The translations under genes and the position numbers were made by a program. Shown piece after piece: positions 22-3,603 of a stretch of DNA of 64,000 nt (within the stretch, counting starts at the first letter, position 1; every line of letters starts with the position of its first letter). The notes beneath the pieces are model-generated. The model saw nothing but the letters and a program-made list of their open reading frames with translations. It did no database searches and was not told the origin of the DNA. Source of the stretch: Allorhizobium borbori (GTDB taxonomy: Bacteria > Pseudomonadota > Alphaproteobacteria > Rhizobiales > Rhizobiaceae); contig NZ_JACIDU010000010.1 of NCBI RefSeq assembly GCF_014196535.1, positions 124,001-188,000 of the forward strand, given 5' to 3'.

Positions 22-681
22 TCAGTCCCTGCCAAGCCGGTAACCGACGCCACGTACCGTGACGATGTTTTCCTTGCCCAACTTCTTGCGCAGGCGGCTG
101 ACATAGACCTCGACAGTGTTGCTTTCGATTTCCGATCCGAAGGCGTAGAGCGCTTCCTCGATCTGGCTCTTGGAAACGACGGCGCCGGGGCGGGCCAGCA
201 GCATGTCGAGCACGGCCCACTCGCGGCCGGAAAGGGTCAGCGGCGCGCCGTCGAGCGTCACGAACCGGTCGGCTGCGTTGATGTCCAGTTGGCCGACGCG
301 GACATTGGCGGTGGCGCGGCCATTGGTGCGGCGGGCAACCGCCTGCATGCGGGCGGAAAGCTCGTCGAGATTGAAGGGCTTGACGAGATAGTCGTCCGCG
401 CCGAAGTTCAGGCCCTCGATGCGGTCGGAAATCTGGTCGTGCGCTGTCAGGATGATCACGGGTGTCGTGCCGCCCTCGTTGCGGTAGGTGCGCAGAAGGT
501 CGATGCCGCGGCCGTCGGGCAGGCGCAGATCGAGAAGAATCATGCCGTAGCTCGTGGTGTCGAGTGCGGCGTGCGCATCGGTAATGTTCGTCATCCAGTC
601 CACCGCGTGGCTCTGCAGGGTCACATGGTCACGCACGGCTTCGCCCAGAATGACGTCGTCTTCCACAAGAAGAATTCTCAA
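22..681 (-). CDS. OmpR/PhoB-family response regulator (PmrA/QseB-like)
   Basis: Two-component DNA-binding regulator of 219 residues. The receiver domain (about 1-115) shows the acidic pair E8-D9, phospho-acceptor D51 in LLDLRLPDG, T79 and K101 in the KPF motif. A winged-helix output domain (about 125-217) ends in VRGVGYRLG, typical of the OmpR family. The start appears to be TTG at 681, 4 bases after GGGAGG. An ATG at 8-6, 13 bases after the stop, could begin a partner histidine kinase, but the window ends there. It is divergent from the PepSY/cytochrome b pair, a layout known for envelope-sensing systems. A motif at 763-789 recurs before eptA and is its likely target. Sub-family placement is inference. 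Confidence 0.93.
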   Translation of the reverse strand: MRILLVEDDVILGEAVRDHVTLQSHAVDWMTNITDAHAALDTTSYGMILLDLRLPDGRGIDLLRTYRNEGGTTPVIILTAHDQISDRIEGLNFGADDYLVKPFNLDELSARMQAVARRTNGRATANVRVGQLDINAADRFVTLDGAPLTLSGREWAVLDMLLARPGAVVSKSQIEEALYAFGSEIESNTVEVYVSRLRKKLGKENIVTVRGVGYRLGRD

Positions 682-762
682 GCAACCTCCCAGCGTATCC
701 TTGTCGCCTTGCCGCTTTCGGGACCGGCGCAGAATACTTATCTCATTTTTCTTCTTAAATGA

Positions 763-789
763 CTGACAAAACTGTCAGGAACCTGAACG
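763..789. promoter_or_regulatory. Candidate operator of the response regulator (copy 1)
   Basis: The divergent intergenic region holds an inverted repeat CTGACA-AAAC-TGTCAG (763-778) that runs into CTGTCAGGAACCTGAACG (772-789). The latter can be read as two CTGnC/CTGAAC half-sites 11 bp apart, the spacing expected for head-to-tail OmpR-family binding. A copy matching at 16 of 18 bases lies before eptA at 3586-3603. It sits about 91 bp from both flanking start codons, so it could serve either gene. That the regulator binds it is inference. Confidence 0.5.
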
Positions 790-880
790 TCTTCGCCGCA
801 TCATTTTTCCAGCGTTCAGTCGTATGTCAGTGAGCCGGTGCAAAAACGGCCATCGTTATTTCATTCAAAGGAGAAATCGA

Positions 881-1147
881 ATGAAACTCGTTCTCAGCGC
901 CGTCCTTCTGTCCGTTGTCGCCTCGGGGGCGGCTCTTGCTGCCGACAAGTGCAAGGTCCCGGTCGGCGAGTGGCAGCCGCGTGAAAAGCTTCAGGGTCAG
1001 CTCGAGCAGAAGGGCTGGAAAGTCCGCTCGATCAAGACGGAAGACGGCTGCTACGAAGCCTATGCCATTGATGCCGCCGGCAAGAAGGTTGAAGCCTACT
1101 TCAACCCCAAGACGCTCGAAGCCGTCGACAAGAAGAGCAACGATTGA
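881..1147 (+). CDS. Small periplasmic PepSY-domain protein
   Basis: An 88-residue secreted protein. Residues 1-20 form a signal peptide ending in ALA-A. The mature part carries one PepSY-like unit (REKLQGQLEQKGWKVRSIKT, then CYEAYAIDAAGKKVEAYFNPKT). Two cysteines (mature DKCK and DGCY) could form a disulfide. The start at 881 is preceded by AAAGGAG 7 bases upstream; a longer reading frame from 824 lacks a ribosome site. The stop overlaps the next start as TGATG. PepSY proteins of this size commonly lie beside PmrAB/QseBC-like two-component systems; a sensing or inhibitory role is inference. Confidence 0.88.
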   Translation: MKLVLSAVLLSVVASGAALAADKCKVPVGEWQPREKLQGQLEQKGWKVRSIKTEDGCYEAYAIDAAGKKVEAYFNPKTLEAVDKKSND

Positions 1148-1689
1148 TGAGCGAACCGACCGTTCGCATCTGGGAGCCCTATGTCAGGGTCTTCCATTGG
1201 GGCCTCGTCGCCAGCATGGCGACGGCCTGGGCGACGGGCGATGAGATTCAGAGCGTTCATGAGTTCGCCGGCTACACCGCCGGCGCGCTCGTTGCCTCCC
1301 GTCTCGTCATGGGCTTCGTCGGCGGGCGCTATACCCGCTTCACCCAGTTCGTGAAGGGGCCGCGCACCGTGCTTTCCTATGCCTCGTCCCTGAGACGCGG
1401 CGAGGAACGACGTTATCTCGGCCACAATCCCCTTGGCGGCGCCATGGTGGTGTGCCTGCTGGGCCTCGTGTCCGGCATCGCCTTCACCGGCTGGCTCCAG
1501 ACCACCGATGCCTATTGGGGCATCGAATGGGTCGAGGAATTGCACGGCTTGCTGGTCGATATCGTTATTGGCTGCCTTGTCCTGCATGTTGGCGGTGTGA
1601 TCATGGAAAGCCGTCGTCACAAGGAAAACCTGGCCGTGGCCATGGTGACCGGTAACAAACGCGCACCTGAAGCGGGCGACATCGCCTGA
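1147..1689 (+). CDS. Cytochrome b/b561-like membrane protein
   Basis: A 180-residue membrane protein of the cytochrome b/b6 (Ni-hydrogenase b-type) family with about four hydrophobic segments. Candidate haem ligands are the His in the first helix (RVFHWGLV), the His after the second segment (SVHEFAGYTAG) and a His in the last helix (CLVLHVGGVIMES). The start at 1147 overlaps the PepSY stop by one base, so the two are translationally coupled. It likely moves electrons across the inner membrane with an unknown donor. A strong terminator follows at 1714. Confidence 0.88.
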   Translation: MSEPTVRIWEPYVRVFHWGLVASMATAWATGDEIQSVHEFAGYTAGALVASRLVMGFVGGRYTRFTQFVKGPRTVLSYASSLRRGEERRYLGHNPLGGAMVVCLLGLVSGIAFTGWLQTTDAYWGIEWVEELHGLLVDIVIGCLVLHVGGVIMESRRHKENLAVAMVTGNKRAPEAGDIA

Positions 1690-1713
1690 ACCTGCATCTG
1701 CCGTCCAGCCATT

Positions 1714-1750
1714 GAAAGAGGCCGCCCTGATCTTCAGGGCGGCCTCTTTC
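1714..1750 (+). terminator. Strong intrinsic terminator after the cytochrome b gene
   Basis: Perfect 17-bp stem (GAAAGAGGCCGCCCTGA with its complement) closing a 3-base TCT loop; the descending arm ends in CTCTTTC followed by GTTT. It lies 25 bp after the stop of the cytochrome b gene. Confidence 0.85.
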
Positions 1751-1799
1751 GTTTGGCCATGCAGGCGCTGGTGGTTGCATCCGGTGCCCCACAAACGAA

Positions 1800-1828
1800 A
1801 TCCGGCCCGGTGTCGGGCCGGGCCGGAT
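1800..1828 (-). terminator. Terminator of eptA
   Basis: Perfect 10-bp stem ATCCGGCCCG/CGGGCCGGAT with a 9-base loop. Read on the minus strand it is followed by TTCGTTTG. It lies 59 bp after the eptA stop, back to back with the terminator of the convergent cytochrome gene. Confidence 0.7.
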
Positions 1829-1886
1829 CTTCCATCAACGGTCGAGACAGCGTTTGGAGGCCGCTTTGAAAGTCTCCCGCCCGTGG

Positions 1887-3530
1887 TCAGGACTTCACAT
1901 CGCTGCGGCAGGCCGCAAGGACGTCGAGATCGTGTTTGTATTCCTTGGTCTGAACGTACATCAGGCCGAGAACCGTGCTGTAGAGGTTGTCGTGGGAAAC
2001 GTCCTCCGCGGTCTTGGCGGTCAGGCAGCCGGCATCCACGGTCTTCTTGGTGTCCTGACCAAGCCACAGAACGAAGGGGATGTGGGTCTGCTGCGAGGGG
2101 GCGACGAAGTAGGGCGCGCCATGGAGATAGAGACCCTTTTCACCGAGCGATTCGCCGTGGTCGGACATGTAGATCATGGAGCCGGCCAGATTGGCTTCAT
2201 GCGCCTTCAGCTTGCCGATGATCGCCGCCAGGAAATGATCGGTTTCGAGGATCGTATTGTCATAGGCGTTGACGATCTCCTCGCGCGAGCAGTTGCCGAG
2301 TTCATCGGTACGGCAGTCGGGCGTGAAATGGCGGCGTTCCTCGGCATAGCGCTGGTAGTAAGCGGGGCCGTGGCTGCCAAGCTGGTGAACAACCAGTACG
2401 GCATCGCCCTTCACGCTCTCCAGCCAGCTATCGAGATTGGCGAGGATAACCTCGTCGCGGCATTCACGGTTCACGCAGAAGCGCGGGTCGTTCTCGTTGG
2501 AAAAGGAGCGGGAAGTGATGCGGTCGGCCACACCCTTGGACCCGGTATTATTTTCCCACCATTCGGTGCGGATGCCGGCATGGGTGAGAATATCGACAAG
2601 GTTCTCCGTGCTCACGCCCTTTTCGAACGTATAGTCCTTGCGGCCGAATACCGAGAACATGCAGGGAATGGATACGGCGGTGGCGGTGCCGCAGCTTGTC
2701 GTTTTCGGAAAATAGGTGATGTCGAGCTTCGACAGTTCCGGGTTGGTATCGCGGCTGTAGCCGCCGAGTGCAAAGCTTTCGGCGCGGGCGGTCTCGCCGG
2801 CCACCACGACCAGCACGCGCGGCCGGCCACTGGCCGAAACGGGAGCATCGACTTGTGCATCGAGTCCGCGCTTTTCGACAACGACATTCGCAACCTTGGC
2901 CGTGCCGATGAAATAGCGTGCCACCTGCACGATGGGCGTAAAGGGGTTCAGCGTTGCCAGAAGATCGCGATGGGCGCGGCTGGTGGAGGACAGCGTGCGC
3001 GCTTCGGTAAGCCCGGCTGCGGCGGTGACGGCCAGCATCAGGGCAATCAGACCGAGATTGGTCTTCAGCTTGCGGCCGAACGTCTTGTGTTCGATCCGGA
3101 CCCACAGCAGCAGGCCGACGGGGATAACACCGAACAGAACCATGTGCTTGATGAAGCCGAAGGTGATGAGGTGCCCTGCTTCGGCGGGTGTCGTGGTCAC
3201 GGCATTGCGCACCATTTCCCTGTCGATGATCGTGCCGAAGCCGTCCATGAACCAGGAGGCCGAGGCCGCGGCGATGACCATGAAGATGAGGATCGGCTTG
3301 GTGATGTATTTGAACGAAAGGGCGATCAGGATAGCCGAGGCCAGCGCAATCAGACCGATGGCCAGCAGCACGACGGTGCGCGTATCATCGAAATAGGTCA
3401 GCGCCTTGGTCCAGAAGGTCCGGTTGGTGATGAGCAGAAGATAGGCGGCCGTCAATATGCTGACGGTCGCGCTGCCGAGCGCCGGGCGCTGGCTGCCGCG
3501 ATTGCCGTCGGTGCGGGTCCTGTTCGTCAT
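1887..3530 (-). CDS. eptA: Lipid A phosphoethanolamine transferase (EptA/MCR family)
   Basis: A 547-residue inner-membrane enzyme that transfers phosphoethanolamine from phosphatidylethanolamine to lipid A. The N-terminal ~180 residues hold five transmembrane segments, followed by a periplasmic sulfatase-fold domain. Visible catalytic features are GETARAES (zinc-binding Glu at about 246), SCGTATAVSIPC (nucleophile Thr at about 284 flanked by disulfide cysteines), and SDHGESLGE with the metal-binding Asp-His near the C terminus. Six cysteines in the soluble domain match the three disulfides of the family. It is transcribed alone, and an 18-bp motif 56 bp upstream copies one found beside the response regulator. 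A role in polymyxin resistance is known for the family, inferred here. Confidence 0.95.
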   Translation of the reverse strand: MTNRTRTDGNRGSQRPALGSATVSILTAAYLLLITNRTFWTKALTYFDDTRTVVLLAIGLIALASAILIALSFKYITKPILIFMVIAAASASWFMDGFGTIIDREMVRNAVTTTPAEAGHLITFGFIKHMVLFGVIPVGLLLWVRIEHKTFGRKLKTNLGLIALMLAVTAAAGLTEARTLSSTSRAHRDLLATLNPFTPIVQVARYFIGTAKVANVVVEKRGLDAQVDAPVSASGRPRVLVVVAGETARAESFALGGYSRDTNPELSKLDITYFPKTTSCGTATAVSIPCMFSVFGRKDYTFEKGVSTENLVDILTHAGIRTEWWENNTGSKGVADRITSRSFSNENDPRFCVNRECRDEVILANLDSWLESVKGDAVLVVHQLGSHGPAYYQRYAEERRHFTPDCRTDELGNCSREEIVNAYDNTILETDHFLAAIIGKLKAHEANLAGSMIYMSDHGESLGEKGLYLHGAPYFVAPSQQTHIPFVLWLGQDTKKTVDAGCLTAKTAEDVSHDNLYSTVLGLMYVQTKEYKHDLDVLAACRSDVKS

Positions 3531-3585
3531 TGCGTGTCGCTTCCTTCCGCGAAATCAAACGGAAAGTTGCGAATGGACCTGTTTC

Positions 3586-3603
3586 CTGACGGGAACCTGA
3601 ACG
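3586..3603. promoter_or_regulatory. Candidate operator of the response regulator (copy 2, upstream of eptA)
   Basis: CTGACGGGAACCTGAACG differs at only 2 of 18 positions from the motif at 772-789. It lies 56 bp before the eptA start and 5 bp after the nadD stop. The two CTGAC/CTGAAC half-sites are 11 bp apart. Regulation of eptA by the adjacent response regulator is inferred from this repeat. Confidence 0.5.

Follow-up and report, generated by a model that had tools for sequence, protein, structure and literature searches.

Do two near-identical 18-bp sites in the genome of Allorhizobium borbori mean that lipid A modification is controlled by a neighboring two-component system? The sites lie in a stretch of 64,000 nucleotides (contig NZ_JACIDU010000010.1, positions 124,001 to 188,000; hereafter the window), one beside the gene for an OmpR/PhoB-family response regulator (RR), from which a PepSY_2 gene runs divergently, and the other upstream of eptA, which encodes an EptA-type lipid A phosphoethanolamine transferase. 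A sequence-only reading of the window had proposed that both are OmpR-family binding sites and that eptA, the PepSY gene and a cytochrome b gene are under one two-component system. The boxes are conserved, keep a fixed promoter geometry, and are associated with this regulator and its target genes. On this comparative evidence, it is highly probable that the motifs are sites of one PmrA-like regulator (22-681), which would activate eptA, its own genes, the PepSY-cytochrome b pair, a small open reading frame (ORF), and a phosphatase gene.

The two sites are located where they had been reported, and 16 of their 18 bases are identical. Allowing up to three mismatches, CTGWCRGGAACCTGAACG matches the window at these two sites only, compared with a mean of 0.24 matches in shuffled windows, of which 3 in 100 reached two matches. 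In the whole 4.81-Mb genome, the two window sites are the only matches with zero or one mismatch; there are two more with two mismatches and 15 with three, giving a total of 19 versus 12 for the reversed control. Approximately 6.6 kb of non-coding window sequence (crudely defined) contains one other, unrelated direct 18-mer pair that also reaches 16 of 18, and inverted 18-mer pairs gave 21 matches, counted twice. Considered in isolation, the pair does not exceed what chance can produce; a similarity of this kind could be accidental or stem from a duplication without any function in regulation. It is conservation that carries the case.

The two sites had also been thought to occur only before these two transcription units. 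This holds for the strict motif; however, when another spacer is accepted, a box with the same half-sites, CTGACATACGACTGAACG, is found at 813-830 on the reverse strand as well (Table 1, box B). With the spacer left free and one mismatch allowed, the window has three matches, a number reached in none of 100 shuffles. In the genome, CTGACNNNNNNCTGAACG has four exact matches, three of them at this locus (one lies outside the window, 1.4 kb to its left); when one mismatch is tolerated, the total rises to 38 (34 with one mismatch) versus 15 in the control. The fixed-spacer 18-bp form was dropped as too strict, since neither the PepSY box nor the majority of orthologs is recovered with it. Its scan of the family yielded 33 matches in 31 of 297 genomes versus 11 control matches; among the 30 loci kept (L001 being the A. 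borbori site itself), the match stood before eptA in 13, other genes of the system were present in L022, L024, L036, and L040, and 12 had no query genes.

In gene direction, the unit reads TTCAG-N6-GTCAG, followed by N10 and then CA, with the pentamers 11 bp apart; written as CTGAC-N6-CTGAA, it reads on the strand opposite its target gene. The earlier division into half-sites at an 11-bp distance agrees with this unit. These half-sites are constant across relatives, whereas the spacer between them varies, with preferences (for example, T precedes GTCAG in 88% of eptA boxes). The assignment of the site at 772-789 to the PepSY/regulator region needs refining: by orientation and spacing it fits the regulator gene, whereas the PepSY-cytochrome b pair has its own box at 813-830.

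This architecture is retained well beyond A. borbori. Among 104 regions upstream of EptA genes in the bacterial family of the window (106 rows minus one fragment match, G272:C4, and one half of a split gene in G044), the half-sites are separated by a spacer of 6 in 45 and by spacers of 0-5 or 7-13 in none. The 28 intergenic regions between the RR and PepSY genes (that of A. borbori plus 27) match the half-sites at 10 of 10 positions in 24 cases and at 9 or more in 27; no match was found in L065. The predicted conservation before orthologs was thus borne out: many relatives have the box ahead of eptA and of the PepSY/regulator pair, and its presence tracks the regulator. When genomes are grouped by the identity of their regulator to that of the window, a boxed eptA is present in 35 of 37 at 63% or more, in 5 of 15 at 57-62%, in none of three at 53-56%, and in none of the 35 that have no regulator at threshold. 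Taken together, 40 of the 52 genomes at 57% or more have a boxed eptA, versus 0 of the 38 others (Fisher p 4e-15, kinship ignored), and the 40 genomes span 18 genera. Furthermore, eptA, RR, and histidine kinase (HK) genes stand in line on one strand at 23 of 70 EptA loci, all 23 of which are boxed. A chance origin was dropped in view of the fixed spacing in EptA upstream regions and the tie to regulator identity: a direct 16/18 pair on its own is unremarkable, but spacing and -10 position are kept in 40 genomes of 18 genera and a boxed eptA is absent where no close regulator exists, which leaves chance or duplication with next to no credence. Because the box is conserved before eptA and the PepSY/regulator pair and follows the regulator, we infer that eptA, the PepSY gene, and cytochrome b are controlled by one two-component system.

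Several observations weigh against this reading. The genomes are related, and the counts are not independent; the comparison by regulator identity covers 90 genomes with an examined EptA, with at most 10 regulator candidates scored in each. An exact eptA box is missing from 12 of the 52 genomes with the regulator, including 2 of the 37 with at least 63% identity. The window regulator carries both domains of the OmpR type (PF00072 and PF00486) and has PmrA as its best NCBIfam match, but it remains under the curated cutoffs for PmrA (217 versus 330 bits) and QseB (215.7 versus 345 bits); it is a PmrA relative, not an equivalog. In favor of the assignment, its closest solved structures are BasR/PmrA (8jo2 and 4s04, E 3e-46; next 2e-34). 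Finally, a paralog of the regulator on C27 (55% identical) lies beside a PepSY gene of its own, with the near-boxes CTTACGGGAAGCTGAAGC and GTCAGGTCGCCGTCAG between them. As to the material itself, named loci and surveyed genomes overlap in part, and the orientation and trimming of loci, as well as one selection step, were manual.

The paralog raises the question of whether the boxes, while of the OmpR family, are bound at some or all promoters by a different regulator, most plausibly the C27 protein (C27:11539-12192), or by both in a form of cross-regulation. Related loci (L168, L169, L171-L174, and L176) share these half-sites, with most of the boxes ending in CTGAAGC or CTGAAGG, and the residues S-R, at the positions of His195-Asn196 in PmrA, are common to all 86 regulator rows (rows rather than genomes, from overlapping loci) at least 53% identical, boxed or not. 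Because paralogs without a boxed eptA also have S-R, these residues alone do not predict a boxed eptA. On the other hand, the local regulator is the obvious partner at the loci where RR-HK directly follows eptA, and a boxed eptA goes with the closer regulators and not with the 53-56% class, small as that sample of three is. Binding by another regulator is, on balance, unlikely, and we retain the window regulator as the preferred candidate.

The position of the box within the promoter points to how this regulator would act. In de-duplicated promoters with an exact box, an A occurs at a fixed offset after the box in 98% of 49 eptA, 100% of 37 PepSY, and 96% of 26 regulator promoters, even though the distance from box to start codon before eptA ranges from 34 to 160 bp. 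A set of 42 named PepSY loci, many of them metagenome-assembled, comprises 27 with an adjoining regulator more than 50% identical and 15 without. Exact TTCAG-N6-GTCAG was found in none of these 15, whereas TTAAG-N6-TTAAG was found in eight, four exact (two sharing one sequence) and four with one mismatch. These eight loci come from few lineages, Marinobacter, Marinobacterium, and Onishia, which we take to be gammaproteobacteria. In six of them TANNNT starts exactly 10 bp past the box, the other two having CAGAGT and GAGAGT there; the conserved C-A is thus probably the start of a -10 element, and the box, with its 11-bp repeat, would lie over the -35 (a position derived from the -10 spacing). 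TTCAG-N6-GTCAG thus resembles a box of the PmrA/BqsR type in which some bases have been replaced. The half-site CTTAA was not found at the boxes linked to this regulator, which have CTGAC and CTGAA instead. A protein bound over the -35 could also block polymerase, and the regulator would then repress rather than activate. However, the geometry equals that described for BqsR, an activator whose site likewise overlaps the -35 with its downstream pentamer (PMC4682146, excerpt), and we regard repression as very improbable.

For activation, the most consistent scheme is the following. The kinase encoded just beyond the window would pair with the window regulator and, by phosphorylation, enable it to bind TTCAG-N6-GTCAG as a head-to-tail dimer, which would cover the -35 and recruit RNA polymerase to the -10 element 10 bp downstream. 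The regulator's own gene pair, the PepSY-cytochrome b operon, and eptA would be activated, as would the genes for a small single-pass membrane protein and a DSP/tyrosine phosphatase-like protein, and the expected outcome is phosphoethanolamine on lipid A. The PepSY protein may provide feedback by tuning the kinase, a role that DbfQ has in Vibrio cholerae (PMC12714742, excerpt). The link of lipid A modification to PepSY and a b-type cytochrome leads us to guess at joint sensing of envelope charge and of redox or metal state. Low pH was not adopted as the signal: eptA of R. tropici showed log2 changes of merely 0.45 and -0.28 in two acid comparisons (PMC5936775, excerpt).

The closest known counterpart is the PmrA/BasR-EptA system (PmrCAB) of enterobacteria. 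Both have an OmpR/PhoB regulator nearest to BasR with eptA as a likely target, the gene order eptA-RR-HK (here in the 23 loci mentioned above), and two half-sites in an 11-bp repeat; in addition, a small membrane protein linked to a box is encoded near the locus, as is PmrR in E. coli (PMC8129183, excerpt). They differ in the half-sites, CTGAC/CTGAA here versus CTTAAG and XTTAAT, standing five bases apart, for PmrA (PMC3973317, excerpt); in the recognition helix, with S-R here versus His195-Asn196 in K. pneumoniae PmrA (roles according to excerpts of PMC4660055 and PMC3973317); and in the PepSY and cytochrome b561 genes of the likely regulon. BqsR/BqsS (CarRS) of Pseudomonas aeruginosa shares the box layout (its site is TTAAG-N6-TTAAG, and the downstream pentamer also covers the -35; PMC4682146, excerpt) as well as PepSY genes adjoining the system (PMC12714742, excerpt), but the pentamers here are TTCAG and GTCAG, and the likely targets here include eptA and the small protein. 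DbfQRS of Vibrio cholerae likewise encodes a small periplasmic PepSY protein beside kinase and regulator; at our loci, that protein is encoded at most four genes from the kinase/regulator pair. Unlike DbfQRS, the module here has a PepSY_2 domain and is linked to cytochrome b561 and eptA. PepSY-two-component modules are widespread, also on opposite strands (PMC12714742, excerpt). In searches of one open-licence library, no listed title or abstract opening described PmrA-like control of eptA in rhizobia and relatives, for which the box now offers a concrete predicted binding rule for lipid A modification. It also suggests that a PmrA/BqsR-type box may change while promoter geometry stays fixed. 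A tentative proposal, which we would neither press nor discard, is a PmrA system rewired in this bacterial family, in which bases of both pentamers and the helix residues reading them changed together and a single-pass membrane protein family of 42-58 aa was gained as feedback on the kinase or a lipid A enzyme.

The small membrane protein was found through its box. An exact box stands 5 bases past the kinase stop codon, and a 45-aa ORF begins 36 bp after it; related ORFs of 42-58 aa follow boxes in other genomes. A model from 14 ORFs gave 15 strong matches (E <=1.2e-11) in 7 genera among the 297 genomes, A. borbori included, although it was built from 14 of the 15 matched genomes, so that this is no independent test and G157 alone lies outside. 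Each of the 15 members is preceded by a box, and each comes from a genome with a regulator of 63% identity or more. Ten are back to back with eptA, one with the regulator gene, one (that of A. borbori) follows the kinase, and three (G054, G262, and G145) lie elsewhere. Their majority consensus is MKxRRxNLGxxxVAALVxxIxxIPL. The ORF search required an I/V-P-L/I motif, and conservation of that motif is therefore built in; bias in codon position is the independent evidence. Differences at positions 1/2/3 number 5/2/22 in the closest pair, and two more from its genus give 14/7/28 and 10/7/28, a third-position bias as for a translated protein. A second genus is less clear (14/11/20, 9/6/14, and 16/10/19), and L267/L269 differ by 5/2/5 over 33 codons. 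A small ORF stood behind the box in 15 of 201 cases in the true direction, in 12 of 201 in the mirror direction, and at 191 of 40,000 random positions; because eptA and the small gene are often back to back, we read the mirror direction as uninformative and not as a clean negative control. In Neorhizobium NCHU2750, a boxed member annotated as hypothetical (AYD03567.1) lies beside eptA-dgkA-RR-HK. The members checked match no Pfam family at cutoff and no NCBIfam family, which points to a small membrane protein family outside both databases. The model had no match in the same-genus genomes G097 and G171. Weak homologs in one genus and G269 (L304-L308, E 5e-8 to 8e-7), which have neither a box nor a close regulator, were left out. 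By analogy, the protein may be a PmrR-like feedback element, the likeness observed being one of gene position. MgrB, a feedback regulator in enterobacteria, offers a parallel.

A wider scan suggests that the regulon is likely larger than the sequence-only reading had it. The extended pattern CNTTCAGN5YGTCAGN10CA gave 112 matches in 66 of the 297 genomes versus 11 for the reversed control; 39 regions, the majority at some distance from eptA, RR, or PepSY genes, were picked from these by eye, together with one match in A. borbori. A DSP/tyrosine phosphatase-like gene lies behind the box in 14 loci (L022, L051, L054, L249-L252, L257, L258, L265, L268, L270, L273, and L276), identified with Pfam in three (L022, L051, and L258) and in the others by eye from an N-terminal stretch around GNF and YRS. 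Agrobacterium CFBP6624 also has a box ahead of a gene whose annotation is dual specificity phosphatase. The A. borbori counterpart on C7 (51% identical, with a Pfam match) has a one-mismatch box 59 bp before the likelier ATG, a further in-frame ATG standing 11 bp downstream of the box. On its own, a box with one mismatch is weak evidence: 34 such boxes exist in the genome, and the control gave 15 matches at up to one mismatch. Other near-matches in A. borbori, not claimed as targets, are C8:203574 (beside two acyltransferase genes), C3:215238, C16:128443, C20:80599, C24:3876, and C32:18413.

Genes boxed in single genomes or genera were not counted as core regulon. Among them are an outer-membrane beta-barrel gene adjoining the kinase, in G235 only (L036:769-1437 and L286:3580-4245); cytochrome b561 in G175 and G233 (in the latter by sequence only); and a further gene in L274/L278/L280. 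A boxed gene with a Pfam glycosyltransferase family 2 domain lies downstream of the kinase in L071 (1590-3835) and L260, and neighboring ORFs appear GtrA-like and YdjC-like by eye; this cluster is possibly a second lipid or lipopolysaccharide modification pathway under common control. In G165 and G270 (L253-L256 and L283-L285), several ORFs judged regulator-like or PepSY-like by eye each have their own box, which suggests local expansion of the system.

Table 1. Boxes, candidate promoter elements, and genes at the A. borbori locus (window coordinates unless prefixed C10).
Feature	Coordinates	Strand	Remarks
Box A (first noted site)	772..789	+	Response-regulator promoter; TTCAG-N6-GACAG in gene direction, 1 mismatch, then N10-CA
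Putative -10 of response-regulator promoter, CATTTA	756..761	-	Fixed N10 spacing after box
Box B	813..830	-	PepSY-cytochrome b promoter; TTCAG-TCGTAT-GTCAG-N10-CA, exact
Putative -10 of PepSY promoter, CAAAAA	841..846	+	Spacing after box
Box C (second noted site)	3586..3603	+	eptA promoter; TTCAG-GTTCCC-GTCAG-N10-CA in gene direction
Putative -10 of eptA promoter, CATTCG	3570..3575	-	Spacing after box
OmpR/PhoB-family response regulator (REC + winged helix), PmrA/BasR-like	22..681	-	Pfam Response_reg, Trans_reg_C; TTG start (ORF list)
Partner histidine kinase of the 22..681 regulator	C10:122629-123969, just outside window		Pfam HATPase_c, HisKA, 2CSK_N
Small PepSY_2 protein, 88 aa	881..1147	+	Pfam PF13670, 100.3 bits
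Prokaryotic cytochrome b561	1147..1689	+	Pfam PF01292
EptA-type lipid A phosphoethanolamine transferase	1887..3530	-	Pfam Sulfatase + EptA_B_N
45-aa single-pass membrane protein ORF	C10:122432-122569, ~1.4 kb left of window	-	TTG start, GGAGG ribosome site

The window EptA scores 558.3 bits against the domain-level NCBIfam family NF028537, above its cutoff of 500, but falls short of the NCBIfam EptA equivalog cutoff (517.3 versus 660 bits); its nearest PDB entry is 5fgn. Upstream of eptA stands nadD, with box C between both genes. The PepSY_2 protein has an apparent secretion signal, as judged by eye. Elsewhere in the genome, there is a second EptA-type gene without a box (C5:142714-144297), and the paralogous response regulator and PepSY gene pair occupies C27:11539-12572.

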